Origin: a virus
Reading direction: 5' to 3' (one strand)
IMG/VR virus record: IMGVR_UViG_3300028394_001413
Location: 1-50,279 of that record
Length of the DNA: 50,279 bases
The notes under the pieces are model-generated. The model saw nothing but the letters and a program-made list of their open reading frames with translations, had not been told where the DNA came from and did no database searches. Positions 1 to 19,437 of this stretch are shown piece after piece; position 1 is the stretch's first letter, and every line of letters starts with the position of its first letter. The position numbers and the translations under genes were made by a program.

Positions 1-2542
1 AGTTCTCTACATTCTGTATAATCTTCCATCGTTCTGATATAGGTAATACTTCTGCAGGCTCTTGCATGTATTTCTTTTCAGTAGCGCCGGGGCAATAATA
101 TTCAATTGTAGGTTCTAGTTCACCTTTAATCCATTTGTTACCCCACACATAAATGTATGCAGGTTCACGTGGGTCAGGTCTCCATGTCATGTCAAACTTA
201 GTTCTATCAACTGGTTGATATTCTATCCACCGTTCGTATTCAGGTACTACATCAACATTGTCCATATACTTACGTTCAGTTGCGCTAGGACAATAATATT
301 CAAGTGTAGGCTTTAACTCTGCATTAATATGTTTGTTACCCCAAGTATAGATGTATGCAGGCTCACGTGGATCAGGTCTCCATGTCATATCAAAATCAGC
401 AACTTCTTGTGTGACTAACCATCTTTCTTGTTCTGGCATAACAGAGACTAGTTCATCCATATACTTATATTCAGTTGCTCCCGGAACATGATACTCAATG
501 GTTGATTTTAATTCGGCCGATATCCACTTGTTACCCCAAACATAAATATAATCCGGTTCTCTAGGATCAGGTCTCCATGTCAAATCAAATTGTTTTCTGT
601 CAATTGATTGAATTTCTTTCCATCTATCAAACTCAGGCAATACTTCAATTAACTCTTTGACATAGTTGACTTCAGTTGCACCATCTACAATATATTCTAA
701 TGTTGCTTTTAATTCAACCGGCACATGTTTATTACCCCAGCGATAGATATAAGGAGGACTTGTTGGGTCAGGTCTCCATGACATGTCAAATTTATTTTTG
801 TCAATATCATAATACTCAATCCACTTGTCACTTACTGCTAACTTAACATCTTGCGACATATGTTTGATTTGAGTAGCACCGGTTACAATGTATTCTACTG
901 TAGGCTTTAATTCACTACCATAGAATTTATTTCCCCATTGATAGATATATGGTTCTTCTGTTGAGTCTGGGTGCCAGCTATAATCAAAGTCTATAATATT
1001 TTCGTGCGTTACCCAGTTTTCAGTTGTAGGTAATGCCTTAGCTTTAACACTATCAACATATTTTGTAGGTGATGCTTCATCACATCTAACTGCTGTAAAT
1101 ATTGGTCCACCTGTTTTCTGATGTTGCGTACCAAATTGATAGACCATTGGTTCATCTTGTATATCAGGATGCCAGCTAAAATCAAAATCTTCTGTCGCAC
1201 ACCCATTTGGTATTGTCCAGTGAGTCATATCTATTTTAGCTTTTGCAGTTTGTACATCAACATACTTAAAGGTTGTGGCACCCTCAACTACAAAACGAGG
1301 TCCACCTGAACGGTTCCATTGACTAGGAAATTGATAGATATACGGTTCATCAGTCATATCCGGATGCCAACTAAAATCAAACTTATTTTGATCTACATTG
1401 TTAGGTACTTGCCAATTTTCAAATTGATAACAAACTACTGTTGCTTTGGTGTCAATATACTTAATTTCAGTTGCACCTTCAACCATATATTGAGGTCCAC
1501 CTGTCTTTTGCCATTGAGTAGCAAATTGATACATATATGGTGGATAGTTGGGATTAGGTTCCCAACTATAATCAAAGTTTGAATCTAACACATAGCTTGG
1601 TATATTCCAGTTATCAGTAGATGGGTTGCGTTTAACACGCGCATCCATGTATTTGTACTCAGTAGCACCTTTTACTACATATTGAACAGAAATTTTATCC
1701 TCAGGCTTATTCCATTGATTCCCCCACGCATATATATATGGTGGGCTTGTTGGATCAGGTACCCAACTAAAATCAAACGATGACGGATCAATATTTTCTA
1801 GTATTTCAAATGCAGCCGGCCTTGCTGCCAGCTTAGGCACAATGTTTTCAATAAATTTGCGCTCAGTAGCTCCCTCAACATGGAACTCTATTGTTGGCAT
1901 TACACTTGCAGGATATTGATTGTTACCAAACACATATATATAAGGAGGGCTAGTAGGATCAGGTCTCCAACTGTAGTCAAAATTAACCGGTTCGTATATA
2001 ATGTTAAACAAGCGTGGCATAGGTAACAATGCTGCTATTTGATCTGTAACATACTTTCTGTCAGTTGCGCCCGGAACGTGGTATTCAACCGTTGGCATAG
2101 TAGTTCCAGGATACCAATTGTTACCAAAAACATAGATATAAGGAGGGTCGCTAGGATCAGGATGCCACTTGAATTCAAATTTAGATTTATCGATATATTC
2201 AATAATCTTCCAATTATTTGTTATTTCATCTTTTAATGATATTGGATCTACATCCGCTCGGTAAATAATTAGTGAATCTATGTTAGTTGAGCAAAGCCAA
2301 GTACCACTATCTTTTTGATAGCGGCTGGGCCATACATTGTTGTGTGCTTCTGCCCATACATCTTCATCGGGTAAGAAATCAAAATCCCAGTCCCAATCAA
2401 AGTCTTTGTAATTGCAATGTTCATTGATTACCCAAAAATGTTCAGTTGTGCATTGACGTTTAGCGTCAGATAAATCTATTGCATATCTTTCTCTAGGGTG
2501 AACGTTGGGTTTCTCTGTAAAATAAAATACATCTCTTAACAT
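1..2542 (-). CDS. Tandem-repeat protein, 3' end beyond the window (partial)
   Basis: An uninterrupted frame of 847 codons opens with ATG at 2542 (starting MLRDVFYFTEKPNVHPRERY) and continues off the left edge, so the C-terminus is missing. The start lies 8 bp after the carbamoyltransferase stop. After a divergent N-terminal unit rich in Trp and Asp (about residues 45-85) come 11 units of about 64-68 residues. Each carries the pattern FDxSWxPDPxxPPYIYxxGN, then a stretch ending near VPGATExKYxD. No signal peptide or membrane segment is seen. I do not recognise a named domain. The aromatic-rich repeats suggest a ligand- or carbohydrate-binding scaffold, which is inference. A catalytic domain, for example a glycosyltransferase, could follow beyond the window. 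Gene order makes it the last visible member of the modification operon. Confidence 0.88.
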   Translation of the reverse strand, partial: MLRDVFYFTEKPNVHPRERYAIDLSDAKRQCTTEHFWVINEHCNYKDFDWDWDFDFLPDEDVWAEAHNNVWPSRYQKDSGTWLCSTNIDSLIIYRADVDPISLKDEITNNWKIIEYIDKSKFEFKWHPDPSDPPYIYVFGNNWYPGTTMPTVEYHVPGATDRKYVTDQIAALLPMPRLFNIIYEPVNFDYSWRPDPTSPPYIYVFGNNQYPASVMPTIEFHVEGATERKFIENIVPKLAARPAAFEILENIDPSSFDFSWVPDPTSPPYIYAWGNQWNKPEDKISVQYVVKGATEYKYMDARVKRNPSTDNWNIPSYVLDSNFDYSWEPNPNYPPYMYQFATQWQKTGGPQYMVEGATEIKYIDTKATVVCYQFENWQVPNNVDQNKFDFSWHPDMTDEPYIYQFPSQWNRSGGPRFVVEGATTFKYVDVQTAKAKIDMTHWTIPNGCATEDFDFSWHPDIQDEPMVYQFGTQHQKTGGPIFTAVRCDEASPTKYVDSVKAKALPTTENWVTHENIIDFDYSWHPDSTEEPYIYQWGNKFYGSELKPTVEYIVTGATQIKHMSQDVKLAVSDKWIEYYDIDKNKFDMSWRPDPTSPPYIYRWGNKHVPVELKATLEYIVDGATEVNYVKELIEVLPEFDRWKEIQSIDRKQFDLTWRPDPREPDYIYVWGNKWISAELKSTIEYHVPGATEYKYMDELVSVMPEQERWLVTQEVADFDMTWRPDPREPAYIYTWGNKHINAELKPTLEYYCPSATERKYMDNVDVVPEYERWIEYQPVDRTKFDMTWRPDPREPAYIYVWGNKWIKGELEPTIEYYCPGATEKKYMQEPAEVLPISERWKIIQNVEN
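128..2190 (-). repeat. Eleven in-frame tandem repeats of about 191-205 bp
   Basis: The anchor (coding for YIYxWGN or YIYxFGN followed on the other strand by the PDP motif) recurs near 136, 327, 532, 731, 930, 1128, 1319, 1514, 1713, 1918 and 2118. Period is 191-205 bp. Units diverge in DNA while keeping the protein pattern. Two subtypes are visible: units near 1128, 1319 and 1514 carry a TGGP variant and are shorter, while the others carry a longer loop before PTxEY. These are coding repeats, not an array of identical spacered repeats. Confidence 0.9.
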
Positions 2543-2550
2543 CTACTTAC

Positions 2551-4047
2551 TTATGACAATACTTTAACACCATACATATTTTCAAAGCGATCTGCATCAT
2601 CTCTATTATTGACCATTGGTTCTCCTCTAACATTTAAGCTAGTGTTAAGTAACATAGGACATCCAGTTAAGACATACCATTTTTCAAGTAGTTCCCTAAT
2701 TCCCGAACCATCTTTAGGCACAGTCTGTACTCGACTAGTTTTGTCATGATGAACTATAGCAGGAAATAACTCAGGTACTCTACAACGAGCTATGACTTGC
2801 ATGTACCTGCTGTTATCGAAACCACGCGGCATATCAAAGTAAGTATCAGCATACTCCTCTAGAATGATTGGTGCAAATGGTCTGAATTTTTGTCTACGTT
2901 TAATTTCATTTACTTTGTCTTTTATGTCATCACCTCGTGGATCTGCAAGCAAGCTTCTATGTCCAAGTGCTCTGGGCCCAAATTCTGCTCTACCACTAGC
3001 GACTCCTGCAATTTTATCACTAAGTAGAGAATCAAGAATGCGATTGGTAGGATAATTGCCGCTAATATCATACCCAAGAAAAGCAGTAGTCCAATTAACA
3101 CGTTTGCCATAACCAAGACAGGCTGCTCCAAGACTAGAACCAGCATCGCCAGGATTAGGCATAATCCAAATGTTGTCATAATAATCTCCTAATAATCTAT
3201 TAGCTAAACAATTTAATGCTACCCCACCACCATATACAAGATTTTTACTACCACCTAACATTTTTGCTTTGCTAATAACATTCATTATTAATTGTTCAGC
3301 TATCAATTGTGCGCTACATGCAATGTCCATATCATCTGCACCTTCTAAAAAAGTTTCAGATACACCTGTGTGCAAATTATCTTTGAATGTAATGTCTCTG
3401 TATGATTTTATTAACTCAGTAGACATCTTATCTACTGATTTTGATTTACCATACGCTGCCATACCCATTAAGATATATTCTTCATCTAGTGGGCGTAGTC
3501 CTACTCTTTTCGTCATTGCACTATAAAACAGTCCAATACTATCTGGATAACGTTGTCCCCATAACTTTTTATACTTTGCTATACCATTTTTGTCATACCA
3601 TGCATTATAAATACTGATTGTGTCAAACTCACCAATAGCGTCAATGACAACTACAGTAGCATCATCATAAGGACTTGTTTGAAATCCTGCGGCTGCATGA
3701 CTTAAGTGATGATTATGTGTATGAACCTTACCACTACGACCATCTTGCAATTTATGAATTAAACCTCTACCTATGATTTCTTTAACAAACAAATTAGATA
3801 ATACAGGTTTTTCACCTGATCTAACTTGTCGCAAGAACTTCATCCAGGGGCGTTCATAGTAATGAATCTTGATATCACGTGAGGTTGTATATGATAGTGC
3901 ATCTTCAACTATATCATAACACAAGTGCTTTGTATGTTTATCTTTATTATAGCGTTCACTGTGACCGGCAAACAATATATTACCTTTGTCATCTATAACA
4001 CTTAGTGCGGCATCGTGAAATCCTGAGGATATTCCTATATAGTTCAT
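2551..4047 (-). CDS. NodU/CmcH-family O-carbamoyltransferase
   Basis: This 498-residue protein has the layout of the family that transfers a carbamoyl group from carbamoyl phosphate, through carbamoyl-AMP, to a hydroxyl of a sugar or antibiotic. The N-terminal Kae1-like ATPase-type domain starts at GISSGFHDAALSVID. It has the metal-site histidines HNHHLSHA (about 111-118), the acidic motif VIDAIGEFD (about 134-142) and GGGVALN in the second half. The C-terminal domain has EFGPRALGHRSLLADPR, then FRPFAPIILEEYA, then LNTSLNVRGEPMV. Key motifs look intact, so activity is plausible, although the protein is somewhat short for the family. Its ATG overlaps the preceding SGNH gene stop in ATGA, so translation is probably coupled. 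The acceptor is unknown; a hydroxyl on a phage-made glycan, peptide or nucleotide is inference. Confidence 0.93.
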   Translation of the reverse strand: MNYIGISSGFHDAALSVIDDKGNILFAGHSERYNKDKHTKHLCYDIVEDALSYTTSRDIKIHYYERPWMKFLRQVRSGEKPVLSNLFVKEIIGRGLIHKLQDGRSGKVHTHNHHLSHAAAGFQTSPYDDATVVVIDAIGEFDTISIYNAWYDKNGIAKYKKLWGQRYPDSIGLFYSAMTKRVGLRPLDEEYILMGMAAYGKSKSVDKMSTELIKSYRDITFKDNLHTGVSETFLEGADDMDIACSAQLIAEQLIMNVISKAKMLGGSKNLVYGGGVALNCLANRLLGDYYDNIWIMPNPGDAGSSLGAACLGYGKRVNWTTAFLGYDISGNYPTNRILDSLLSDKIAGVASGRAEFGPRALGHRSLLADPRGDDIKDKVNEIKRRQKFRPFAPIILEEYADTYFDMPRGFDNSRYMQVIARCRVPELFPAIVHHDKTSRVQTVPKDGSGIRELLEKWYVLTGCPMLLNTSLNVRGEPMVNNRDDADRFENMYGVKVLS

Positions 4048-4868
4048 TTAATAAATTCCATAACAATATCAGCCCATTGTTTATGATGTATAGGTCCGGG
4101 ATGTTTTTTATCTCTAGCTAAATCTGATTCAGCTTGTTCTTTGCTTTCTGAACTCCAAAGCGGCAATACTATACTATTTTTTAATTTTAAGTTATTAAAT
4201 AAATTATATGTTTCTCTGTCCCATGATGAGAAATATACTTTAATGTTTCTGTTCTTTGCAATGTAGTCTACCAAGTATATGTCGTTTTTAAAAGTTTTAA
4301 TTTGTTCTTCATTGGGTACATATTTATATAGCATTTCAACATCTACTCCATAGTTGTGTGTCAACTCACTTTGCAAGCCGGGAACCAAAGATAAGTTAGT
4401 CATCATATCTCTTTTTATATGTTTTATTCCAATTTGCATTCTATTATAGCTAGGTAATAAAAACACAGCGTGTTTCATTTGTATATGTTTAGATGTAATT
4501 AAAAACAAGTCTGCAATCGATTTGCAAGATGCGCCTGACACACCAAAATTCAATGAAGTTAACTGTAGTTCACTTGCTAGTAAGTTATGCCAAAGATAAT
4601 TGTCAGGTAATCCTAATCCAGCTGTAAAACTACAACCAAATGCACCCATATCTATACTATTAGGTATATCATCTGAGAATCTAAATCCTAATTTATTAAA
4701 ATAGTAATCAAAGTTAGGGCCTTCCCATGTACTAGCATGTTTAATTTCTTCACGTGATGCAAAATCAATTCTATATGGCTCATCAGTCCAGATTACATGT
4801 TCTGTTTTAGTATACCCAGTTACATCATCTAATGACTCTGAATCTAATAAATTAACTAAATTCATCAT
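4044..4868 (-). CDS. SGNH/GDSL hydrolase-like protein (1 of 3)
   Basis: A protein of 274 residues (273 if the second ATG is used) with the SGNH signature. The nucleophile block reads GAFGCSFTAGLG with Ser80, where the usual GDS is GCS. A following NFGVSGAS fits the Gly block, and DKKHP near the C-terminus (Asp253, His256) fits the catalytic Asp-His pair. SGNH proteins cleave or transfer acyl esters on glycans, lipids or peptides. No signal peptide is seen, so a cytoplasmic role in the infected cell is likely. It starts in ATGA overlap with the small 34-residue gene upstream and ends in ATGA overlap with the carbamoyltransferase. That context suggests acyl transfer or removal on the same unknown product, which is inference. 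Confidence 0.75.
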   Translation of the reverse strand: MMNLVNLLDSESLDDVTGYTKTEHVIWTDEPYRIDFASREEIKHASTWEGPNFDYYFNKLGFRFSDDIPNSIDMGAFGCSFTAGLGLPDNYLWHNLLASELQLTSLNFGVSGASCKSIADLFLITSKHIQMKHAVFLLPSYNRMQIGIKHIKRDMMTNLSLVPGLQSELTHNYGVDVEMLYKYVPNEEQIKTFKNDIYLVDYIAKNRNIKVYFSSWDRETYNLFNNLKLKNSIVLPLWSSESKEQAESDLARDKKHPGPIHHKQWADIVMEFIK

Positions 4869-4969
4869 TTATAGATAAATGGGTCTCTTTTGCGTAATTC
4901 TTTTAGTCGTTTACGATAACGAATTTCCGATTTTATACTATGATATAAATTTCTAATCCACTTGAACAT
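4865..4969 (-). CDS. Small basic 34-residue protein
   Basis: This short frame fills the apparent gap between a radical SAM gene and an SGNH gene. It begins at ATG 4969, inside the last 17 nt of the radical SAM gene, and its TGA overlaps the ATG of the next gene in the ATGA arrangement used across this operon. The product begins MFKWIRNLYHSIKSEIRYRK and ends KRDPFIYK. It is strongly basic and probably one helix. Coupling on both sides is the main argument that it is real. I recognise no function. A radical SAM peptide substrate is conceivable because of its neighbour, but there is no leader/core pattern, so I treat it as an unknown small phage protein. Confidence 0.65.
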   Translation of the reverse strand: MFKWIRNLYHSIKSEIRYRKRLKELRKRDPFIYK

Positions 4970-6257
4970 AATCTGTTTCCTCTTTGTTAATAGTATTTAC
5001 TATTTCTACGATCTGTGGGAATATTGCTCTCCAATCTCTACTTCTTCGCTTGTCTATGTCATCTAAAAAATTTGCACAATCATTGACTTCTTTTTTGTTT
5101 ACAGGGGAGGTTAATAATTGTTGTTGTATTCCCATTAAATGAGTTTGTAATTTTTCTTTTTCTACAGAGTTGCTATAATTTTCTAATGCTCGTATAGGCG
5201 CATCAATAAACGGTGCTAGGTATTTTCCAAAATTGTATGGATTAAATGTAGACGGTCTTACTACCGTATTCCAATTAATACCAACCGAGTCTTTAATCTT
5301 TCTCCACTCATTTGTTTTTTCTATTAACTGATGTAATGTAGGTAGTGTTAGTACAGTGAGTGTAGCATGAACTAATACTCCTACCCCTGACGAGTGTAAC
5401 AATGTATTCATGTTTTGTTCCCACTCAACTAATATTAATCCATCACGTACATATTCAATCTCTGGTCCCCAGCAATCAATACTACAGACAAATTCCATAC
5501 GTTTTAATTTGCCCTGATCTATTAGGTTTTGTACACGTTGAATTTTAGCTTTGAATTTTTCTGGATCATGCTTTAAATTACTAAATGTGCGATATACTAG
5601 ATTAGGTCTAGGGTGTTTGTCAAAGAAATCTAAGCACTGTTCAAATTCTTTTTGATATAATGGCTCTCCGCCCAATACTTGTAAAATTTGCACGTGCTCA
5701 CTATTTTTTTCCATCCATTCCCAAAACTTTTCTTTGTATAATTCATACTTTGAATTTGGATTCCATTCACTGTAATCTTTATTAAATTCACTAGGTCCAT
5801 GTTTACGAACTTCTTGTTCAATCTTACTACTAAATCCGGGGGTACAGTATACGCATGATTGATTGCATACGTTATTGAAATAGACTTCAAGTAAAGTAGG
5901 ACTAACTTTTAAAGGGATATGATCAAATTCAGTTCCTTTGGGTACAAATCCTTCAAACTCAGGTGGCAACAATTCAATTGACTCATTGACAAATCCCGTT
6001 CTATCACTTTTACCACCTGCATTTTCAACATCTCTGCAATATTCACATCCATTGCCCGGCCAATCACCGGTTGCCATTTTTTCTCTGTCAGCAAGTTTAC
6101 CGTGGTGATTGTGAAAGTCCATGAAATTATCTTCTGTCAATTTCCAATGACGACCTCGATGACAGCTTGAAGTTGTGCCGCGGCTTAAGAATAACGTGCT
6201 CCATGCCCATTTATATAGGCAGGCAGCATCATTTTGTATAGGAAATGTTTTTTTCAT
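4953..6257 (-). CDS. Radical SAM protein, N-terminal twitch-like Cys region, SCxH type (11th copy)
   Basis: A 434-residue protein. The N-terminal Cys region has C13, SCHR at C32 and CEYC at C71/C74, likely ligands of an auxiliary Fe-S cluster. The SAM-cleaving cluster motif is C131-x3-C135-x2-C138 (NNVCNQSCVYC), with GGEP at about 196-199 and an FWEW segment before it. The C-terminal tail holds DKRRSRDWRAIFPQI, related to the tails of its paralogues. These enzymes make a 5'-deoxyadenosyl radical; the substrate is not predictable here. It is set apart from the other ten copies by two SGNH genes. An exact TATAAATA lies 5 bp upstream of the ATG, with no clear Shine-Dalgarno sequence. Confidence 0.9.
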   Translation of the reverse strand: MKKTFPIQNDAACLYKWAWSTLFLSRGTTSSCHRGRHWKLTEDNFMDFHNHHGKLADREKMATGDWPGNGCEYCRDVENAGGKSDRTGFVNESIELLPPEFEGFVPKGTEFDHIPLKVSPTLLEVYFNNVCNQSCVYCTPGFSSKIEQEVRKHGPSEFNKDYSEWNPNSKYELYKEKFWEWMEKNSEHVQILQVLGGEPLYQKEFEQCLDFFDKHPRPNLVYRTFSNLKHDPEKFKAKIQRVQNLIDQGKLKRMEFVCSIDCWGPEIEYVRDGLILVEWEQNMNTLLHSSGVGVLVHATLTVLTLPTLHQLIEKTNEWRKIKDSVGINWNTVVRPSTFNPYNFGKYLAPFIDAPIRALENYSNSVEKEKLQTHLMGIQQQLLTSPVNKKEVNDCANFLDDIDKRRSRDWRAIFPQIVEIVNTINKEETDYVQVD

Positions 6258-6262
6258 ATAGA

Positions 6263-6270
6263 TATTTATA
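6263..6270 (-). promoter_or_regulatory. TATAAATA, match to T4-type late promoter
   Basis: The minus strand reads TATAAATA, identical to the T4 late promoter core, at the junction of the SGNH gene stop and the next radical SAM start. It lies only 5 bp from the ATG, so a transcript starting at the usual distance would have almost no leader. It may instead be an AT-rich initiation region or chance in AT-rich DNA. Confidence 0.35.
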
Positions 6271-7090
6271 GAAGATTTTGTAGTGAGGGTAGTATTACTT
6301 TTTCCAAATAGATAGAATGTCCCTTGTTATTGACATGCCTATCCGGTGCAACACATTCTGCATTGAATTCACTATTTTTTATACCAGAAAAGTCATGATT
6401 CATAATTGTATCTACTCTGTGTTGGTGCAATTCCGGAGAGATCATTCTATGCATTGGAAACCCCTTCCACATAAATTTGCGGCGAGGAATAAATTTAAAC
6501 GTGTCAAAGTTTAGCAGAGTTTTAAGGTCATTAGGTTGATCTATTGTTACTATCAATGGCAAACTCCAAACAAATTTAATATTAAATCCGGTAGCAAACC
6601 CATATGATGCTAACATAGCAGTCATGGATAAGTTAACTCCAATAGCATCATTGTATAAATGAGTAAGATACATTTTTTTTGCTAGATTATAATCCCTAGT
6701 ACTATCCATTTGACTCTGATGGTCATATCCAATAACCCAAGACGCAGGTACCTCAGGGTTGTCAGCTAATGCGATTTCTAGTCTGTCAGCTAATGTTCCA
6801 TGAAACATTAATATATCATTGTCATTACACGGATTATTATTGAAATACTTTACTATGTCACGAAATATTCCTTGATTAGAATTACCCGGGTTGGCTAAAT
6901 TAATAACTTCTAGATCAGGATATCTTTGTTGTAATAATGCCGGCCAACAGAAGTCACTAGGTTTAGGATTATGAAAATGAGTAGGATCCCCCACAAATGA
7001 TTCAGATTGCTCATCGTAATAGTATATTCTATCTGAACAACCATGCCCAAACGTAAAACTATCGCCGGCTATAACTATTCGTCTTGTCAT
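6266..7090 (-). CDS. SGNH/GDSL hydrolase-like protein (2 of 3)
   Basis: A 274-residue protein with a clear GDSF block at the N-terminus (IVIAGDSFTFGHG, Ser11), a Gly/Asn block (NLANPGNSNQG), and a C-terminal PDRHVNNKGH holding the likely catalytic Asp250 and His252. All parts of an SGNH active site appear present, so an esterase or O-acyl transferase activity is plausible. No signal peptide or membrane segment is evident. Its ATG overlaps the stop of the upstream SGNH gene in ATGA, and 8 bp separate its end from the next radical SAM gene. The two neighbouring SGNH proteins share little beyond the motifs, suggesting different substrates or separate acquisition. Confidence 0.8.
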   Translation of the reverse strand: MTRRIVIAGDSFTFGHGCSDRIYYYDEQSESFVGDPTHFHNPKPSDFCWPALLQQRYPDLEVINLANPGNSNQGIFRDIVKYFNNNPCNDNDILMFHGTLADRLEIALADNPEVPASWVIGYDHQSQMDSTRDYNLAKKMYLTHLYNDAIGVNLSMTAMLASYGFATGFNIKFVWSLPLIVTIDQPNDLKTLLNFDTFKFIPRRKFMWKGFPMHRMISPELHQHRVDTIMNHDFSGIKNSEFNAECVAPDRHVNNKGHSIYLEKVILPSLQNLL

Positions 7091-7821
7091 ATATTGTATC
7101 TTGCTGTGATTTCTTCGTCATATGTAAAATCTTTATGTTTATACAAGTCAAATATAGTTTTACCATCGCCTGCTAATGCATTAAACAATATAGTAGATAG
7201 TATCGTATTAAACTCTTTAGACAAATGACACCATCTATTATCTAATATTCCCATAGTAGGTAACTCTTTTTTACTTACAGAAAATAAATTGTATAGGCAA
7301 TCTCCACTTCGGCTATCTAAATTAATAGCATAGGTTTTATCTTTCCTATCATCAAATGTTAGTAAATTAACCAACTTAATATTTTTATTTCTGCAAATAT
7401 TGTTGATATCATCAAATATTTTTTGTTTCACAAATTGGTCAAACGATGGACTAATATTTGGAATATGTCCAGTTAATATTCTAACTATTTCTAGTTCTTG
7501 TTGCTGAGACAATCCTTTATTTCTTCCATATGCATACAAGTCATCCGGGGATGTCAAGAAACTTAAATCTTCAAGACCTTCAGGCAAGTGATGAATACGA
7601 TGCAATGACGAATAACAAAATATTATCCACTCGAATTGTTCATGATGAGCTAAAAATTGTTCGTATGAATACCACGTAGAAGTTCCTGTTTTTCCGTACG
7701 ATGTTATCTTGTGTCCGGCTGATTCCATATCGGCAATCCACGACTCATCTTCTTTGAAGGGGCTCTCTGGATTGTACGGCGTTCTATCTGCAAAACTATC
7801 ACCAAATACACCTATTTTCAT
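7087..7821 (-). CDS. SGNH/GDSL hydrolase-like protein (3 of 3)
   Basis: A 244-residue protein beginning MKIGVFGDSFADRTPY, with the GDSF nucleophile block at residues 7-10 (Ser9). YGKTGTSTW (about 42-50) fits the second block, and DNRWCHLS near the C-terminus (Asp194, His199) fits the catalytic pair. No secretion signal is seen. The start is supported by an AGAGGT Shine-Dalgarno-like sequence about 8 nt upstream and by ATGA overlap with the preceding radical SAM gene. It is probably a carbohydrate or peptide esterase or acyltransferase, by family only. The acceptor is unknown. Confidence 0.75.
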   Translation of the reverse strand: MKIGVFGDSFADRTPYNPESPFKEDESWIADMESAGHKITSYGKTGTSTWYSYEQFLAHHEQFEWIIFCYSSLHRIHHLPEGLEDLSFLTSPDDLYAYGRNKGLSQQQELEIVRILTGHIPNISPSFDQFVKQKIFDDINNICRNKNIKLVNLLTFDDRKDKTYAINLDSRSGDCLYNLFSVSKKELPTMGILDNRWCHLSKEFNTILSTILFNALAGDGKTIFDLYKHKDFTYDEEITARYNI

Positions 7822-8990
7822 TTGTTTACCTCTATAATTTTTTTACTATACAACTTATCCATTGCAGATTTATGTCCGCATGTTTCTAAACAATATAACA
7901 GTTTGCCATTCTCAATAGTATCTGCTTTCCAACCATCTAAGAAGAACTTACTAAAATCAGAGCCTTGAATAATGTCTAATATTGATTGATTCTTTAAGTT
8001 AAACACTTCTAATCCATAATCATTAATCATCTTGTTAAATTGATGACGAGAATATGAACTATTAAACTGACCAAACACCCCGCCTAAGAAACAACACGGT
8101 AACATATAACCATTTGCTGATATGTATATTTCTTTTGATTCTTTGTGTTCGATTGACTTACAAACTATCGCTGAATTCTTCTCTAATTCTTTACTAAATT
8201 CGGATAAAATAGGAATTCTTTTTTGATTCATAAATTTGAAATCAACTTTGTTTCCAAACGGAGGATCTTTTCTGAAACCAGTATACTTAGAAGGCCAAAT
8301 AGTATATTCATAGTCACCATCTTTGCCGTATACATTAATTCCATTCAATGTATCTTCATACTCTCCAAATCCCAATGGATTTTTAACAATAAACTCAAAC
8401 CCTAATTCTTTTGATAATATTCTAGCTTCTTCAACTTGATGCTCATTGTGTTCAAATAACAACCATTCCCAAACAGCAAATGCGCCTGTTGCGCTATATG
8501 CTCTCATATTTTTGATTAGTTTTTCCCAAATAACACCTCGTCTGTATATATGATTAGTATCTTCCAATCCATCCACACTAAACACAACTCCGGCTTTGCT
8601 GAACAAATGATTGTCTCTTGCAGGTGATTGATTTACAAAGAAGTTTCCCAGTGACGTCCAAAATTTTTCATTACGCATACCACCGTTAGTTCTAAGCTGT
8701 TGAACAATTTTAGGAGAATGTTCTCTAAAATATTCTAATATAGGTATTAAGTCTGGCGCCATACCCGGATCACCCACGTTTCCACAGAAATTTATACCAA
8801 TTAAATTCTTTGCTATCTCTTCGGGAACCATACGCTTAATGTCATCTAGTGACAAGTCAGTTAGTTCTAAACCATCTGCAACAGGACCACCTGAATAGTT
8901 TCTACTACATGCAGGACAATTAGCATTACATCTACTAGATAATTCTATATGTAATCTTTTTACATTTTCTACTTCATACATTTGTTCCAT
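7818..8990 (-). CDS. Divergent radical SAM protein with C-terminal Cys-rich (SPASM-like) region
   Basis: A 390-residue protein unlike its ten neighbours. The cluster motif is close to the N-terminus (SSRCNANCPACSR, C21/C25/C28), so there is no N-terminal twitch-like region. Where the others have GGEP it has CGNVGDPGM (about 69-77), a common variant of the SAM-binding strand. The C-terminal third holds cysteines around VCKSIEH, LPCCFLGG and YCLETCGHK, as expected for auxiliary Fe-S cluster binding in SPASM-type enzymes. Such enzymes often act on peptides or aminocyclitols, but no substrate is visible here. It starts in TAATG overlap with the upstream gene and has AGGAT before the ATG. Confidence 0.88.
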   Translation of the reverse strand: MEQMYEVENVKRLHIELSSRCNANCPACSRNYSGGPVADGLELTDLSLDDIKRMVPEEIAKNLIGINFCGNVGDPGMAPDLIPILEYFREHSPKIVQQLRTNGGMRNEKFWTSLGNFFVNQSPARDNHLFSKAGVVFSVDGLEDTNHIYRRGVIWEKLIKNMRAYSATGAFAVWEWLLFEHNEHQVEEARILSKELGFEFIVKNPLGFGEYEDTLNGINVYGKDGDYEYTIWPSKYTGFRKDPPFGNKVDFKFMNQKRIPILSEFSKELEKNSAIVCKSIEHKESKEIYISANGYMLPCCFLGGVFGQFNSSYSRHQFNKMINDYGLEVFNLKNQSILDIIQGSDFSKFFLDGWKADTIENGKLLYCLETCGHKSAMDKLYSKKIIEVNK

Positions 8991-10243
8991 TATTTTAATC
9001 CTATATATTTTGCTAGATTGTCTGGTTTATTTCTACGTTGTGTATATTGTTCAAAGAATATATCACTGTCTTTACGCAATTGTGGTTGAGTTTCTTTAAT
9101 GAAACCTTCATCTAAGAATTTAAGTAGTCTAGCACAATGTTCGTGTTCTACAGGTAATAACTCATCTTTGATTGACTCATAAAACTTAGTGTATTTGTTA
9201 ATATAGAAATCACGTTCTTCACGTGTTAAGCAAGCAAATCCTTGAAAGTCTGGTTTGTCAACCATATTAATAGAGATATAGGGTTTAACTTTAGAACGGT
9301 TGCGAATAGTAATAATGTCCAAATACATTTGTTCAAGCGATTGCAATGCGATTGCACTTACTGTTGTACTTACACTAAATTCTTTAACTGTGCTGTTTGC
9401 TAATCGTTCAATGTTTTCTAACCATTCAGCGTAGACCATACCTTCACGAATGAATTCTGCTGTTTCATTAGCGGATTCATTACTGATATTCATACGTAAA
9501 TTAGTCAATCCACTAATCTTATCAAAGAATCTATCCATGATTACAGGCTTTTGGCAAAGGTTGCTGTGTATCACGCATTCAATATCTGAGTTCATCTCTG
9601 TCATCATTTCAAATACACGAAAAACTTCTTCGTGCATTAATGGCTCTCCACCTGACACACGAATAGATTCTAAACTAGTAGCAACACTTTCAAACCACTC
9701 CCAGAACAATGTCATATCAGGAGGGTCAATCATTTCATTGAGTTCGTTGATATCTTTCTGATAGTGTCTACGGTCGTCAGTAATGATTCCTTGATATACA
9801 CCATTCACTTTGATATCGTTAATCCAGCTAGTACTGAATTGAGGACTACAATAGCTACAAGCTAGATTACATGTGTTTTGAAATGCTAACTCTAATGCTT
9901 TAGGTTTGAATACATAGTTGGGATTCTTATAATCTTCTGCGGCCAAGTGGTTTGTGAAACTTAAACTCTTACGTGTTCTGTCACTACGTAATCCTAAATT
10001 TTCATATCGCCAGCAACTATCACATGCAGGTGGCTGTTCTCCTGCCAACATTTTCTTTTGTTGTTCACGTTTTTCAGTAGGGTTGTAGAAAGTGTCTACT
10101 GTATTACCTACTTGAATAAACGGAGTGTAATGGCAACTGGCAATCTTACCTGAGTAAACCCAGATACTTGCCTCATGGAATTTTGCAAGACAAAACGTAT
10201 TACTTGTTTCATCTCTTATCTTAAATAATTTCTTTTCGTCCAT
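8990..10243 (-). CDS. Radical SAM protein, N-terminal twitch-like Cys region, SCxY variant
   Basis: A 417-residue protein. N-terminal Cys region: C18 in FCLAKFHE, C37 in SCHY, and C74/C77 in CDSC, followed by ENLGLRSDRTRKS. Core motif C125-x3-C129-x2-C132 (NTCNLACSYCSP) with FSTSW just after. FWEWF precedes GGEP at 198-201. The tail YTQRRNKPDNLAKYIG keeps the Arg pair but lacks the FPEL ending found in related copies. It is closest by pattern to the copies at 14048, 17903, 19435 and 4953. The ATG follows the previous stop as TAATG, so the genes are coupled. Function beyond radical SAM chemistry is unknown. Confidence 0.9.
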   Translation of the reverse strand: MDEKKLFKIRDETSNTFCLAKFHEASIWVYSGKIASCHYTPFIQVGNTVDTFYNPTEKREQQKKMLAGEQPPACDSCWRYENLGLRSDRTRKSLSFTNHLAAEDYKNPNYVFKPKALELAFQNTCNLACSYCSPQFSTSWINDIKVNGVYQGIITDDRRHYQKDINELNEMIDPPDMTLFWEWFESVATSLESIRVSGGEPLMHEEVFRVFEMMTEMNSDIECVIHSNLCQKPVIMDRFFDKISGLTNLRMNISNESANETAEFIREGMVYAEWLENIERLANSTVKEFSVSTTVSAIALQSLEQMYLDIITIRNRSKVKPYISINMVDKPDFQGFACLTREERDFYINKYTKFYESIKDELLPVEHEHCARLLKFLDEGFIKETQPQLRKDSDIFFEQYTQRRNKPDNLAKYIGLK

Positions 10244-11574
10244 TAGTATTTCTTAAATTTGTTGTCACTAAATTCAACATCCAAATTATTATAAATCAGG
10301 TAATTCTTCATATTCATGTGCTCAGGGTATACGTCAAAAAAACTTTGGCTACGTATCTCATCCAATCGTGTAGTAATCTTATTAAACTCTTTCAGGCTTT
10401 CATTGATGCCATTATGATACTGTCCGTTTTCGTCCCACATAAATTTAATTGCTGTTTCATACATACTTATGATTCCGTAAGGATGTCCAAAAGATTTAAG
10501 CCAAACTATATTCTTTTGTAGTGCCTCTTCAATTTCACGCTTTTTCCAATCTGGAATGTTCTTTAAACAATAGTATGGTGGTGTGTCTAATGGATTTAAC
10601 AATATGTCTTCCGGTCTAAGATAACCTAATTCTACCCACTCTTTATGAAACTCTACTAAGTTAAACGCATTGGGCCAGCTTAGAGTATATGAAATCATAA
10701 AATGCACATGTGGACATTCTTCCATCATTTGTTTACGGTTTGCTACAACTTGTTTCCAATCTATGCCATTACGCCAGTACTCACCCCTTTCGTGGCTACC
10801 ATCTAAGCTAGCATATACGTGTACATTTGAGAACTTCTTCCAATACTCTAATACATTGTCATATTTCTTTAATTTAAAATTGCTGAAGTTTGTATTGTAA
10901 CGTATCTCTAAATCAGTATTACCCAATTCAATTAGCTTGTTAAGAACTTCATAATGTTCTTTTTGCATCAATGGCTCACCGCCTGCAAAATAAATCATCT
11001 TTGCTGTAGCTAGGTGTGGTAGTATTTCTTCTAGTGCTTGGCCTTCTGTTTTACCCGGAAATTGAAACCCATCATCTTTTTCACGCCTTACATCTAAGTT
11101 GTACAACTTGCGATGATCCATTACCCAACTTGTACTAAAATGCGGAGCACAACTACGACAACTTAAATTACATAGATTATTATATCTAACATCAATATAA
11201 TATAGTTTGTGCTCATCCAATGATCCGTCGGCATTTGTACTTGCTACAATTTTTTGAATTTCTTCATCATTGTCAAAAAACATTTTGTTGTACTCGTTCT
11301 TATGTGCATGACCCAAATCAGCGCGGCGGTTACATATACTACAACTGGGTTCTTCAATTCCATTAAGAAAATTCAATCGCATTTGTTTTGTTTTATCGTT
11401 GTTCCAGATTTCTGCTAATGTGTTTTCTTTTAAACTACCTATTTCAGCTTGATTGTCATACACACAGCAAGGCTTAACATCTCCCGGTGGTCCTACATAT
11501 TGTTGTATCCATGGAAAAATGCAAAACGTTTTGCTATTCTTAGCCATTTCAACTGGATTAAAATCATTTGTCAT
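10243..11574 (-). CDS. Radical SAM protein, N-terminal twitch-like Cys region, PCC type
   Basis: A 443-residue protein. N-terminal cluster region: FCIFPW (C18), a Gly-rich turn, KPCC (C36/C37), IGSLKENTLAEIWN, and CSIC (C78/C81). This is the classic order of the twitch-first radical SAM family. Core motif C135-x3-C139-x2-C142 (NNLCNLSCRSCAP), FSTSW, then FAGGEPLM with GGEP at 198-201. The C-terminal tail LDEIRSQSFFDVYPEH matches the paralogue tail pattern. The start overlaps the upstream gene by 11 nt. It is most like the copy at 11564; the pair may be a relatively recent duplication within the array. Confidence 0.92.
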   Translation of the reverse strand: MTNDFNPVEMAKNSKTFCIFPWIQQYVGPPGDVKPCCVYDNQAEIGSLKENTLAEIWNNDKTKQMRLNFLNGIEEPSCSICNRRADLGHAHKNEYNKMFFDNDEEIQKIVASTNADGSLDEHKLYYIDVRYNNLCNLSCRSCAPHFSTSWVMDHRKLYNLDVRREKDDGFQFPGKTEGQALEEILPHLATAKMIYFAGGEPLMQKEHYEVLNKLIELGNTDLEIRYNTNFSNFKLKKYDNVLEYWKKFSNVHVYASLDGSHERGEYWRNGIDWKQVVANRKQMMEECPHVHFMISYTLSWPNAFNLVEFHKEWVELGYLRPEDILLNPLDTPPYYCLKNIPDWKKREIEEALQKNIVWLKSFGHPYGIISMYETAIKFMWDENGQYHNGINESLKEFNKITTRLDEIRSQSFFDVYPEHMNMKNYLIYNNLDVEFSDNKFKKY

Positions 11575-12880
11575 ATGGTTTCATTTTTTCGTGTAATTCT
11601 GGAAATACTTCTTCAAACTTCTCGTTACGAATACTGTCTAGCAAATGTGTTTCTTTATAAAACCGGGGTATATTATTGGTCTCATCTTTACTATTCATTA
11701 ATGTTATAGCGTTTTTCCAATGATCTATATACACATCATAATGAATATCGTGCGGCTGTGTTTCATTTAACCATTCAATATGTTTGTTAATTTTTTCAGT
11801 AACTACTTTTTTAACATCCAATGGCAACAACGTTGTTCTTAACCATTCCGGATCATGTAATGTGTTTAAATAAAATCCAAAATTAGATCCATCACCACGT
11901 TTAAATAAATCACTCTCACACATATACCTGTGTAGGTCTACTGCGGCCGATGCATTAAACAACTCAAACACAGCACTAACCCCGTAATCAATATTAGGTA
12001 AATATTGTTTACATGTTTTTAACCATTCAAGAGCCTTTTCCCAATTAAAACCTTTACGTATATACTCTCCTTGTGCTCCCATGGCATCAATACTTCCCAC
12101 AATGAATACATTGTTAAAATGTTGTAGCATTTCAAATGCATGATATTCTTTTAGAGAGTACATTGTCAGATTAGTATTATATCTTATTTTTACTTTTGTT
12201 TTGCCCATGTCTAATAATAATTGTAAAAACAAGTAATGATCCTCTTGCATCATTGGTTCACCGCCACTGAAATGAATCTCTGTATATGGATCAACCATAT
12301 TAACTAATTCTATCAAATCATCTTTCATATGAGTAACAGTTTCATTTGTTAATAGTGATAGTGTTACTGGATGTATCTTAGAGCGACCCAATTTAATTTC
12401 GTCTGGTATCCAGCCTGTGCTTAATCCCGGGCCGCATGTTCTACACTTCATATTGCATAGATTATTAAATATCAAATCTACCGTAGCTAATTTAATATCT
12501 TCTACTGAACCGTCGTTGTTACCTATAGATACGATATCATCAAATTTATTATATCCATTACGATTAGTATAATCTGGAAAGTTTGAATAGCGTTCATTAA
12601 ATCGCTGGCGCATACTCACAATACCAGAATCTTCTTCTTTCCAACACCTAGTACAAGCAGTAGGCTTTTTACCATCTAAAAAGTCTTTTCTAAGTTCATT
12701 CCATTTTTGTCCGTGAAATATGTCAACAATCTTTTCTTTGTTCCAATTGCCTAGATTGTGTTTACTTTCATGGCTGTAATAACAACAAGGAAACACTTTG
12801 CCATCAGGTTCAGTGTGTATCTGTAACCAAGCTACACTACAAAAAGTTTTTGGTAATTCGTCAATATTTTTATCTATCAT
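11564..12880 (-). CDS. Radical SAM protein, N-terminal twitch-like Cys region, PCC type
   Basis: A 438-residue protein. N-terminal region: FCSVAW (C14), FPCC (C32/C33), LGNWNKEKIVDIF and CTRC (C76/C79), followed by EEDSGIVSMRQRF. Core C142-x3-C146-x2-C149 (NNLCNMKCRTCGP), LSTGW, and FSGGEPMM with GGEP at 206-209. The tail LDSIRNEKFEEVFPEL is a full match to the conserved C-terminal signature of the array. Start and stop both overlap neighbours by about 11 nt, so reading is probably coupled. A radical-mediated modification on an unknown substrate is all that can be claimed. Confidence 0.92.
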   Translation of the reverse strand: MIDKNIDELPKTFCSVAWLQIHTEPDGKVFPCCYYSHESKHNLGNWNKEKIVDIFHGQKWNELRKDFLDGKKPTACTRCWKEEDSGIVSMRQRFNERYSNFPDYTNRNGYNKFDDIVSIGNNDGSVEDIKLATVDLIFNNLCNMKCRTCGPGLSTGWIPDEIKLGRSKIHPVTLSLLTNETVTHMKDDLIELVNMVDPYTEIHFSGGEPMMQEDHYLFLQLLLDMGKTKVKIRYNTNLTMYSLKEYHAFEMLQHFNNVFIVGSIDAMGAQGEYIRKGFNWEKALEWLKTCKQYLPNIDYGVSAVFELFNASAAVDLHRYMCESDLFKRGDGSNFGFYLNTLHDPEWLRTTLLPLDVKKVVTEKINKHIEWLNETQPHDIHYDVYIDHWKNAITLMNSKDETNNIPRFYKETHLLDSIRNEKFEEVFPELHEKMKPYDK

Positions 12881-14057
12881 TTTTATTTTTCCACCGCTTT
12901 GTTACCAATTTGTCAAAATCAAAATTCATAAATTTCATAAAATCTTTTACTACAATCATGTGATTGTTCCCGCGTCTAAAATCGTGTACATTTAGTAACT
13001 GTACTCCTAAATTAAATTTTTCTAAATCAAATACATCGTGTGTAGTGTTTAACATGTGTTCTTTGTATAAAAATAATGTTTTTTCATATGTTTGACTTTT
13101 GGAAGTATCCATTTTAGAAATAACATCACTATATATTTTTGTTCGCATATCTAATGCTAATAAGTCAATAGAAAATGGTTCAGGGTCTCGCAATTTACTA
13201 ATATATATATCAGATACATTAGGGTAATTAGTTTGCATCCAATTAAAAAATTTATAAAAATCTAAACAATTCATCCATGATAAGGTATAATGACATCCCA
13301 TATAAAAATTATCATATTTTTTAGTTAAGTCATAAAAAGAATCACAAACTTTTTTTAAAGTTTCAAATGATGCTCCAAATCTAAGATATTCAAATTCTTC
13401 TTCAATTCCGTCAATGCTTAATTGTACATTTATTCGTTCAAATACATTAATGTATCTTAATAATTTTTCATTGTAAGTTGTACCGTTTGTTGTTATTGTT
13501 ATTGTTGTTTGTTTTGCATAAGGCTGTTCAACTAACCAGTCTAAAAACTCAAATATAGCCGGATTAATTAATGGTTCTCCGCCCAATATACTAAATCTTA
13601 ATTTTTTAAATTCTGTTTTAGCCAAAAGTAATTTAATAAAGTCAATTTTCTTAGGTGCTTGATTGGAAATATTTTCTAATATATACTTACGATTAAATTC
13701 TGCATCAGCTTTATTTTCAAATTTAAATCTCTCTGCAAGTATCTGTGTGCTATTATTAGGAGTACAGGTGATACATTTTAAATTACAAATATTATCAAAT
13801 GAGGCAGTTATTATTACTGTATCATCAATATCAACAAAGTGTTGCCGATAACTATAAGCTCCACCCTTTTCTTGTTGAATACAATAGTCACAGTTTTTTT
13901 CAATGTCTATGTTAGCTAGTTGGTTTCTATAATCATCAATATCTGTTGCATCAATATCCGTTTTAAACCAACAGCAAGGCCTGTATGGCTTTACTTCATT
14001 TGCAATAAAAATGCTATTTTTTAATGCTAAACAATTTTTAAAAGGTGTTAAATCCAT
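12870..14057 (-). CDS. Radical SAM protein with shortened N-terminal Cys region, PCC type
   Basis: A 395-residue protein. The N-terminal region is the most compact of the array: C9 (NCLALKN), RPCCW (C28/C29), and CDYC (C56/C59), then EKGGAYSYRQHF. Core C91-x3-C95-x2-C98 (DNICNLKCITCTP); the FSTSW-like motif is reduced to NNSTQ. ILGGEPL places GGEP at 159-162. The C-terminus has FRRGNNHMIVVKDFMKF instead of the usual FPEL tail, so this copy has diverged at both ends. It overlaps each neighbour by about 10 nt. Its local base composition looks even more AT-rich than the adjoining copies, judged by eye. Confidence 0.9.
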   Translation of the reverse strand: MDLTPFKNCLALKNSIFIANEVKPYRPCCWFKTDIDATDIDDYRNQLANIDIEKNCDYCIQQEKGGAYSYRQHFVDIDDTVIITASFDNICNLKCITCTPNNSTQILAERFKFENKADAEFNRKYILENISNQAPKKIDFIKLLLAKTEFKKLRFSILGGEPLINPAIFEFLDWLVEQPYAKQTTITITTNGTTYNEKLLRYINVFERINVQLSIDGIEEEFEYLRFGASFETLKKVCDSFYDLTKKYDNFYMGCHYTLSWMNCLDFYKFFNWMQTNYPNVSDIYISKLRDPEPFSIDLLALDMRTKIYSDVISKMDTSKSQTYEKTLFLYKEHMLNTTHDVFDLEKFNLGVQLLNVHDFRRGNNHMIVVKDFMKFMNFDFDKLVTKRWKNKNDR

Positions 14058-15334
14058 GTTAACAGTTCTGGGAAGTTATCTTTAAAATTCTTATTCCTGC
14101 GCTTGTCATATTCACTGATGAATTTAACAAATTGATCTTGGCGCCATGCACGGTCTTCAGGTGTCATTGTATCATGTCTTGTTTTCCAAAAATCATAAAC
14201 CATCTGCCATGTTTCTCTTTCAACATTGACCACTCGACTGTTATCTATGATAAATGAATTTACTTTAGTGAAGTATGTGTCACAATAATCAGGTAATATA
14301 CGTAAGTCAAAGTGTTTAGGATCAACGAGCCTAGCACAATTGAACATAATATCAATACCTTCATTACGCATCTGTATTACTTTCTCAACAAACGTTTGAA
14401 AGTTAAAAACGCTCATCAATCCAAATGTAACCATTACACGAATTGGCACATGAAATGTTGTACTTACTTTGCGTACTGTATTTTCCCAACGTGCAATATC
14501 TAATCCGTCACGTATGTATTCTGCCTGAGGCCCCCATGTATCCATACTAGTGTATACTTCAAGACCCTTGATAGTCTTAGCATTTAGTAGTGTTGTTGCT
14601 TTTTCAAAGAACATGTTTAAGTTCTTGTCAGGCACTGATAGATTTGTATTGACAACTAGTGTTAAATTAGGATTGTGATTAACTGCTACAAAGTCTAATA
14701 ACTTCATAAAGTTACGTGTAGCAAGTGGTTCTCCACCGGTGATGCGTAAATATTTTAAGTCTTTATATGCATCAGGCAACCACTTCCAGAATGCATCAAT
14801 GTATGGATTATCATCTTCTGGGATCATATCATGCATCTTGTCAGCATGTACTGTATGATCTTCAACCGGATAGCTTCCGTATTTTCGAACTTCTTGTTCC
14901 CACTTACTTGATTGCCCAGGTGAACAATAACTACAACCAAAGTTACATACGTTACTAAAACTCAACTCTAGATAACTAGGATTTATTGGTTTATCAAATG
15001 GTGCATCAATTAATTCCTGTCTACGTTCAATCGCATAGTGTTCATTGGTAAAACGTTTACGGTCGCTGATGACATTAGGATTGATTGCTTCCATGTCAAA
15101 GCAATAGTAACATTCTTTTGGCTTCTCGCCATTCATCATTTGTCTGCGTTGTTCAATCTTATGCGCTGTGTTGTGAAGCATACTAGGATCACGTTTTACA
15201 TCTTCTAAGTTCCAACGATGTATAGGTGGGTGATAGCATGAGTGATTTTCACCCATACCAAAGTGCATAGTAGCCATCAACCATTTAGCTGAACAGAATG
15301 AATCTTTAATTTTATCGGGTATAATTGGTATCAT
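14048..15334 (-). CDS. Radical SAM protein, N-terminal twitch-like Cys region, SCxH type
   Basis: A 428-residue protein. N-terminal region: FCSAKWL (C14), HSCYHPPIH (C33 with nearby His), a LHNTAHK segment, and CYYC (C75/C78). Core C130-x3-C134-x2-C137 (SNVCNFGCSYCSP), QSSKWEQEVRKYGSY, DNPYIDAFWKWL, then ITGGEPL with GGEP at 200-203. The tail YDKRRNKNFKDNFPEL is a strong match to the array signature. It shares the LHNT, NPYxxAFWxW and KYG/KHGGY segments with the 19435 and 17903 copies, so these three form one clear subfamily although other copies lie between. It starts in ATGA overlap with the gene upstream. Confidence 0.92.
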   Translation of the reverse strand: MIPIIPDKIKDSFCSAKWLMATMHFGMGENHSCYHPPIHRWNLEDVKRDPSMLHNTAHKIEQRRQMMNGEKPKECYYCFDMEAINPNVISDRKRFTNEHYAIERRQELIDAPFDKPINPSYLELSFSNVCNFGCSYCSPGQSSKWEQEVRKYGSYPVEDHTVHADKMHDMIPEDDNPYIDAFWKWLPDAYKDLKYLRITGGEPLATRNFMKLLDFVAVNHNPNLTLVVNTNLSVPDKNLNMFFEKATTLLNAKTIKGLEVYTSMDTWGPQAEYIRDGLDIARWENTVRKVSTTFHVPIRVMVTFGLMSVFNFQTFVEKVIQMRNEGIDIMFNCARLVDPKHFDLRILPDYCDTYFTKVNSFIIDNSRVVNVERETWQMVYDFWKTRHDTMTPEDRAWRQDQFVKFISEYDKRRNKNFKDNFPELLTWI

Positions 15335-16509
15335 AATATTTCTTTTAATTCTGGTATATAATTTTTATAGTCTAACCCACGTGCGTTATCAACTGCTATT
15401 ATAAACTCTTTTGCTTTTTGTAGCAAGTTAGGTTGGTACGGTTCGTGTAATTTATTCAATAAATCTTTACGTTGCCATTCATGTAACCTATTTGCATAAT
15501 GACTACGTAGTTCTTCTTTATAGAAATCAGGCAATGTTGCAAGACTCAAATAGTCCGGGTACAATACATAGTTATGATGAGGTGTTTTGTTATAGTTAGT
15601 TTCTAACCAATTACCAAACTCTGCTAAATGGTAGATGTTAAGAATACTAACAGTCTGAGTAACATGCCAATTTAAGTTAGGTAGCTTAGTCAGTTTCTCA
15701 ATACTTGCAACCGTCTCTTCCCATTGTGTAGGATAACGTATGTAATAGTTACGATTGCCCAAATCATCAATACTTGCGTTGACTGTAACTTGTTTGAATT
15801 CTTTCCATAACTCAATCAATCTGTCAGGTATATCCATCATGTTTAGACTATACACAAGATGTACGTTCTGTGATGTACCCAATGTAATCAAATGTTTCAA
15901 GTATTCAAAGTGAGCCTTAATTAATGTAGGTTCGCCACCATTGATATAGATTTCTTCTACAGATTGACTACTGTTTGCTAAATCCCGATAGAAATTTTCA
16001 TTTTCAAACCATTTGAAGTTCTCCATTGCACGTAGTTTGAACCAGGGTAAAACGTTAGCAATCTTTTTCTCATCAGGATACCATTTAGTACTGCTATAAC
16101 TGTTGCAAGTTAAGCAGGCATTGTTGCACACATTACCCAAACGTAGTTCCACATATATTAAGTTGATATCACTGAGCTTTGCCGTTTGTTCAAGTTTAGG
16201 AATAATGTGTGCCCAACGCTCATTCTCGTACTGGCGTTTACTTTTAATGCCAGCATCTTCATCTTTCCAACAACCTTCACATTCAACAGGTCGTTTACCA
16301 TCAATCATTGCTTGTCTAACTTCAACGAACTTCTCGCTGTTCATTATATCTTCCACACTATCGTTATCTAACATAACAAGATTATGTGTGTTAGATTTTT
16401 TTGCCCAACTAACTGCGTCTGTGTGGTTGCTACGGCAACAGAGGCTTGCGCCCCCGTTTGGATGTGTTGCTAGATGCATCCAGGGTAATACGCATAATGT
16501 ATTACTCAT
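15331..16509 (-). CDS. Radical SAM protein, N-terminal twitch-like Cys region, PCC-like (LCC) type
   Basis: I place the start at ATG 16509 (MSNTLCVLPWMHLATHPNGG), which overlaps the upstream stop in ATGA; an in-frame ATG at 16527 would add only six residues with no better ribosome site. From 16509 the protein has 392 residues. N-terminal region: C6, LCC (C24/C25), CEGC (C77/C80), then EDAGIKSKRQYE. Core C128-x3-C132-x2-C135 (GNVCNNACLTCNS), SSTKW, and INGGEPTL with GGEP at 191-194. The tail VDNARGLDYKNYIPEL keeps the R-x-x-x-aromatic and PEL parts of the array signature. The substrate is unknown. Confidence 0.9.
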   Translation of the reverse strand: MSNTLCVLPWMHLATHPNGGASLCCRSNHTDAVSWAKKSNTHNLVMLDNDSVEDIMNSEKFVEVRQAMIDGKRPVECEGCWKDEDAGIKSKRQYENERWAHIIPKLEQTAKLSDINLIYVELRLGNVCNNACLTCNSYSSTKWYPDEKKIANVLPWFKLRAMENFKWFENENFYRDLANSSQSVEEIYINGGEPTLIKAHFEYLKHLITLGTSQNVHLVYSLNMMDIPDRLIELWKEFKQVTVNASIDDLGNRNYYIRYPTQWEETVASIEKLTKLPNLNWHVTQTVSILNIYHLAEFGNWLETNYNKTPHHNYVLYPDYLSLATLPDFYKEELRSHYANRLHEWQRKDLLNKLHEPYQPNLLQKAKEFIIAVDNARGLDYKNYIPELKEIL

Positions 16510-19426: not shown

Positions 19427-19430
19427 TTTA

Positions 19431-19437
19431 TTCCTTA
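19431..19437 (-). promoter_or_regulatory. Ribosome binding site TAAGGAA that fixes a start
   Basis: The minus strand has TAAGGAA 4-5 nt before the ATG at 19426. Its TAA is also the stop codon of the upstream radical SAM gene, so termination and re-initiation are placed together. This favours 19426 over the longer open frame. Confidence 0.65.

Follow-up and report, generated by a model that had tools for sequence, protein, structure and literature searches.

A tandem-repeat protein family of uncultured jumbo phages, related to GT-A-like modules and encoded at the border of a sugar-modification cassette

What is the long tandem-repeat protein encoded at one end of this phage contig, and what might it do beside genes for sugar modification? 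The window, meaning the whole stretch of DNA analyzed here, is an entire linear virus record of 50,279 bases. The repeat protein gene (2..2542, minus strand) begins inside the record with an ATG at 2542 and runs for 847 codons without a stop, with its 3' end missing at the contig edge. The C-terminus of the window's own protein lies outside the record, and C-terminal features were taken from relatives. Leftward extension of the contig had been suggested in a sequence-only reading of this DNA; an exact left-edge search found no other contig.

The first 108 residues form an N-terminal module (2219..2542, minus strand; MLRDVFY..KPNVHPRE...TTEHFWVINE...FDWDWDF), which is related to two longer stretches of the relatives, P0 and P1, described below. 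It is followed by an array of 11 units (2..2218, minus strand; W.I...D..FD.SW.PDP..PPYIY.WGN.W....PT.EY.V.GATE.KY), as counted with a profile of units drawn from across the family. The F-motifs start at positions 2179, 1981, 1777, 1576, 1381, 1186, 988, 790, 589, 394, and 196 on the minus strand, and F[DE]xxW falls at residues 122, 188, 256, 323, 388, 453, 519, 585, 652, 717, and 783, a spacing of 65-68. A degenerate copy is found at residue 48. Units are 64-69 residues long and share F and W, and mostly also D, P, D, Y, and A, when aligned. Tandem Repeats Finder detected no array at the DNA level at this gene and pairwise identity among the units is only about 20-64%, suggesting that the array is old and diverged. 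The frame, its 11 units, and their regular period and divergence were thus as the sequence-only reading had described them. The array was confirmed to be real and not a chance pattern, since 59 loci share this period, this kind of unit, and the N-terminal module, with up to 66% identity. A frameshift, which that reading had considered as a way to explain the frame away, was ruled out because the intact relatives are single frames of about 1,200-2,800 amino acids.

The relatives lie in viral metagenome contigs, where uncultured jumbo myophages encode them in at least 59 loci, and a second scan of such contigs, with unit pairs, gave 140 matching stretches. The longest open frame has 2,784 codons, and each relative has 9-33 unit-profile matches, a count that takes in the long modules too. 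The repeat protein had no credible match among Pfam, NCBIfam, and PHROGs profiles or PDB sequences. The best sub-threshold values were E 0.076 for Pfam and E 0.006 for NCBIfam, the latter far under the cut-off score, with none for PHROGs. The relatives likewise showed no consistent match to described domain families. The earlier statement that no family could be named was therefore upheld, and the possibility of a well-described repeat domain was set aside, as no profile matched above cut-off. No match to the repeat protein was found in 50,697 phage records, including those of cultured phages. As a positive control, the window's baseplate protein retrieved 276 of these records, many of them jumbo phages. 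Two degenerate-pattern scans of 84,980 prokaryote genomes, which reach close relatives only, gave no relative; 12 aligned window units differed too much from one another to be used as a pattern. No description of the repeat protein or of the combined locus was found in the literature. The repeat protein is a real, widespread, and unnamed viral protein family.

The relatives suggest what the unit is. All of them have in common their first 110 residues and, at the C-terminus, a conserved stretch of ~545 residues. Beyond the short units they have three longer stretches, P0, P1, and P2, and a C-terminal domain (the C-domain). The P1 consensus is DMFFVDRGN.ES..RFE.LK..F...QKTRYLNSW..TINRC...T.L.WILNSELDY..FDF.YYPNPWQ..MVHVFGTQWSHWGTTFMVN. 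The short unit (W.I...D..FDFSW.PDP..PPYIY.FGNQW....P..EY.V.GATE.KY) aligns with the second half of P1. At E<0.001, a unit HMM matched P0 in 39/39 and P1 in 41/41 sequences; at E<0.01, it matched 35/42 C-domains. Reversed P0, P1, and C-domain sequences gave zero matches. For P2 and the N-terminal module, the register was consistent and the match was not significant. Profile comparisons with hhalign gave 99% for the unit and P0, 95% for the unit and P1, 98.5% for P0 and P1, and 98% for P1 and P2, all well above 25 column-permuted controls and the reversed control. The N-terminal module gave 92% with P0 and 77% with P1, also above these controls. The comparison of P1 with the C-domain was not significant against them, and the two are linked by the unit profile and the common fold. 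A relationship of the unit itself to part of GT-A-like modules, as these profiles indicate, goes beyond the sequence-only reading.

Next, predicted structures were compared. For one relative (L016), the C-terminal region of 706 aa was modeled with AlphaFold2 (pLDDT 83, pTM 0.69). The model shows repeated β-α-β-α-β modules, and its top 50 PDB fold matches were almost all GT-A glycosyltransferases. The best was E. coli K4 chondroitin polymerase (E 2e-5, probability 0.95), and further matches included the PBCV-1 glycosyltransferase 2p72 (probability 1.00), SunS, ArnC, and GalNAc-T. In the model of window units 1-3, where pLDDT is mostly >90, the strands follow one another (W-I strand, loop, YIYVFGN strand, strand, strand) as they do in the second half of P1. 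The repeat model alone had no match among PDB folds (best E 1.9), so the reading of the unit as half of a GT-A module rests on the chain of homology. It did match two BFVD models structurally, A0A6J5L5L5 and A0A6J5LK21 (E 1e-34 and 3e-25; 25-29% identity), uncharacterized proteins of uncultured Caudovirales phages that evidently belong to the same family. A GT-A origin of the fold appears well supported by the profiles and models together. We infer that the array would be a tandem series of GT-A half-modules that lack the nucleotide-binding β-α-β-α half.

The sequence-only reading had also placed a possible catalytic domain beyond the window. A GT-A-like predicted fold was indeed found in the C-terminus of the relatives, but the DxD metal-binding motif of GT-A enzymes is replaced in it: at the aligned position, 42/42 C-domains have [FP]-A-K, and the residues in P1 are NSELD or similar. 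The motif is kept only in a separate 317-aa homologue of the C-domain (21652..22605, minus strand; hhalign 98%, E about 1e-13, about 30% identity), where DGD is intact, as it is in 65/65 homologues of this gene. The unit profile did not match the DGD homologue. In nine large records (174-525 kb), the C-domain profile found exactly these two genes in 9/9. A 76-kb contig (L061, 3300010160_000036) carries the 317-aa homologue at 100% identity to that of the window and is perhaps the same virus in another assembly; it has no repeat-protein match, consistent with the contig ending before that gene.

The two genes act as bookends of a cassette. They have the same orientation in 17/17 contigs holding both, at a distance of 7.4-25.5 kb, which in the window is 19.1 kb, and enclose a variable 7-26 kb sugar-modification cassette. 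The earlier claim that the repeat gene is coupled to a modification operon is supported. A NodU-like carbamoyltransferase of 498 aa, identified by profile (2551..4047, minus strand), ends 8 bases before the repeat ATG. It is the next gene upstream in 49/57 loci with upstream sequence, when small unassigned frames are ignored, and it is absent from 2/9 large records that retain the repeat protein, indicating that the pairing is not obligatory. One locus without the usual copy beside the repeat protein has a short 313-aa carbamoyltransferase relative with 34% identity (L009:3694-4632). Farther along the minus strand of the window are a 274-aa gene with no confident family (4044..4868), a twitch-domain radical SAM protein (4953..6257; NF033640, 224 bits), and two small genes (6266..7821), of which 6266-7090 has a weak GDSL/SGNH match and 7087-7821 has none. 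The remaining radical SAM array (7818..21000) comprises a SPASM radical SAM gene (7818-8990) and nine twitch genes. Altogether, 4953-21000 holds ten nearly consecutive twitch radical SAM genes above the NF033640 cut-off (175-360 bits) and one SPASM gene, a density that is unusual for a virus.

Sugar-nucleotide synthesis genes were not identified in the window itself. The cassettes of the relatives contain genes for DegT aminotransferase, GDP-mannose 4,6-dehydratase/epimerase, sugar nucleotidyltransferase, dehydroquinate-synthase-like, and B12 radical SAM proteins. With these sugar-nucleotide genes in the relatives, and the carbamoyltransferase, twitch array, and DGD homologue in the window, the locus has the content of a jumbo-phage polysaccharide-modification cluster. 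Variable cassettes at L007:2653-7651, L012:1-8407, L022:295-7638, L045:4234-8393, and L057:5670-9145 include, besides B12-binding radical SAM, DegT, and DHQ-synthase-like genes, a nucleotidyltransferase/kinase-like fusion and a GatZ-like aldolase, so that phage sugar pathways of several kinds occupy one genomic slot. Two cassette proteins that recur among the relatives, one of 321-328 aa and one of about 590 aa (L012:3664-4626 and L012:5874-7652), have no Pfam or NCBIfam match.

The reading that we prefer, with a probability of roughly 0.58, is that the protein is an acceptor-binding array derived from GT-A enzymes and lacking DxD, that the window gene encodes its N-terminal part, and that the phage locus around it builds or modifies a glycan. 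The repeat protein probably helps build or handle a virus-specified sugar coat. A full protein would run from the N-terminal module through the short-unit array and two or three longer GT-A-like modules to the C-terminal GT-A-like domain. Each short unit would be equivalent to the latter half of a GT-A-like module, comprising the strand on the DxD side, the FDxSWxPDP loop, and the strands YIYxFGN and xxEY. Lacking the nucleotide-binding half and DxD, the units would not transfer sugar and would instead bind the glycan acceptor or product. A phage-specified glycan, either still growing or complete, may be held by the array. Sugars would be attached by the separate DGD homologue together with other glycosyltransferases, and the radical SAM, carbamoyltransferase, and SGNH-like enzymes of the cassette would decorate the glycan. 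The glycan could be destined for the virion, as tail genes adjoin the locus, or for the host surface.

Another possible explanation is that the C-terminal GT-A-like domain transfers sugar without DxD, as an active metal-independent enzyme, and that the array serves only to anchor this domain or to keep it at a distance from a surface. No other part of the protein is as conserved as the C-domain, which has a mean column identity of 74% and many invariant polar residues, including D81, R82, K87, H88, Y89, N95, H104, W151, R152, and E157, as would be expected for a working active site. There is also a precedent, since metal-independent GT-A enzymes without DxD exist in GT6 (PMC3961637). However, A-K replaces DxD in every C-domain while the DGD paralogue is retained in all nine large records, which suggests that the catalytic role lies in the paralogue. 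We consider an active transferase possible but unlikely.

The gene lies downstream of tail genes, and this position could point to a virion or cell-surface adhesin or fibre, in which the array would be a stalk or a receptor-binding solenoid and modular variation would shift host range. Among these tail genes, 25801-27018 (minus strand) encodes a tail protein that carries a Peptidase_G2 autoproteolytic domain at its C-terminus (E 7e-6). Variable unit number and mosaic blocks are also seen in variable phage adhesins. In contrast, the repeat protein matched no tail-fibre or adhesin family, its near-constant neighbor is an enzyme gene, and its modules are glycosyltransferase-like, making an adhesin rather improbable. 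Between the baseplate-wedge and tail genes, a single frame of 6,145 codons (27826-46263, minus strand) has internal repeats of the type TGFYVGMPI.FTG and probably encodes a giant tail or baseplate protein.

The evolution of the array was examined by comparing units among loci. Units 1-6 of the window array line up in order with units 1-6 of five relatives (L002, L003, L004, L005, and L016; 57-93% identity). Units 7-10 have no good partner in these five (mostly 40-58%) and match units 4-8 of L017 (63-72%). These different best partners indicate that the window array is a mosaic. In the long arrays of L012, L027, L032, L035, and L039, identity between units four apart averages 54-65% with maxima of 80-93%, compared to about 43% at most other spacings, and several have a second peak at lag 8. 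A lag-4 peak was also found in L043. These peaks suggest that several lineages have lengthened their arrays by duplicating blocks of four units. The window array has no four-unit period.

Another possible role is a scaffold whose units dock the cassette enzymes, with one unit type per enzyme or step. The similarity of arrays was correlated with that of cassettes across 29 loci when C-terminal identity was controlled (partial r 0.32, p 0.001), but the correlation was gone in 11 well-separated loci (r 0.01, p 0.44), suggesting that common ancestry explains most of it. The earlier proposal of a scaffold or recognition protein would fit the results in its general form; its docking version lost its correlation in this way, and we disfavor it as very unlikely. 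Also disfavored, and scarcely credible, is the view that these are functionless relics of decayed glycosyltransferase repeats: the catalytic motif is lost and unit number is unstable, but long open frames in dozens of phages, conserved termini, and a fixed position argue against decay. Within the preferred acceptor-binding reading, a more specific version is that the array is an adjustable glycan-gripping ruler, in which the half-modules set polymer length or repeat pattern and four-unit blocks are added in some lineages. We regard the ruler as doubtful.

If the acceptor-binding reading is true, a catalytic fold became a long tandem recognition array once the half that binds the nucleotide had been deleted and the metal motif lost, and the number and order of such recognition units shift by block duplication and exchange. 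The two related bookends, one with DGD and one without, around a variable cassette that is often rich in radical SAM enzymes, would be a hitherto unnamed hallmark of jumbo-phage glycan loci. The pair could therefore serve as a handle to find such loci and to test the purpose of phage-encoded glycans.

Known systems resemble this one in part. Multi-module E. coli K4 chondroitin polymerase (2z86/2z87) and the capsid-glycosylating enzyme of PBCV-1 (2p72) were used as GT-A comparators. Like the K4 enzyme, the relatives of the repeat protein have several GT-A-like modules per chain, with a predicted GT-A fold in those at the C-terminus. Unlike GT-A glycosyltransferases, their modules lack DxD, are mostly short half-modules, and have about 10% sequence identity to them. 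The likeness to NodU/TobZ-type carbamoyltransferases is limited to the neighboring gene at 2551-4047, by profile, and does not extend to the repeat protein. At the level of the locus, the jumbo cyanophages P-SSM2 and S-SSM6a have polysaccharide-modification gene clusters, proposed to alter the host surface against competing phages (PMC7824862). These are likewise clusters of jumbo or T4-like phages, with sugar-modification, glycosyltransferase, and carbamoyltransferase genes that vary among related phages. Radical SAM enzymes are nowhere mentioned in that paper, and its passages on these clusters name no repeat protein. What is new here is the GT-A-derived variant; the kind of phage locus in which it sits is known.
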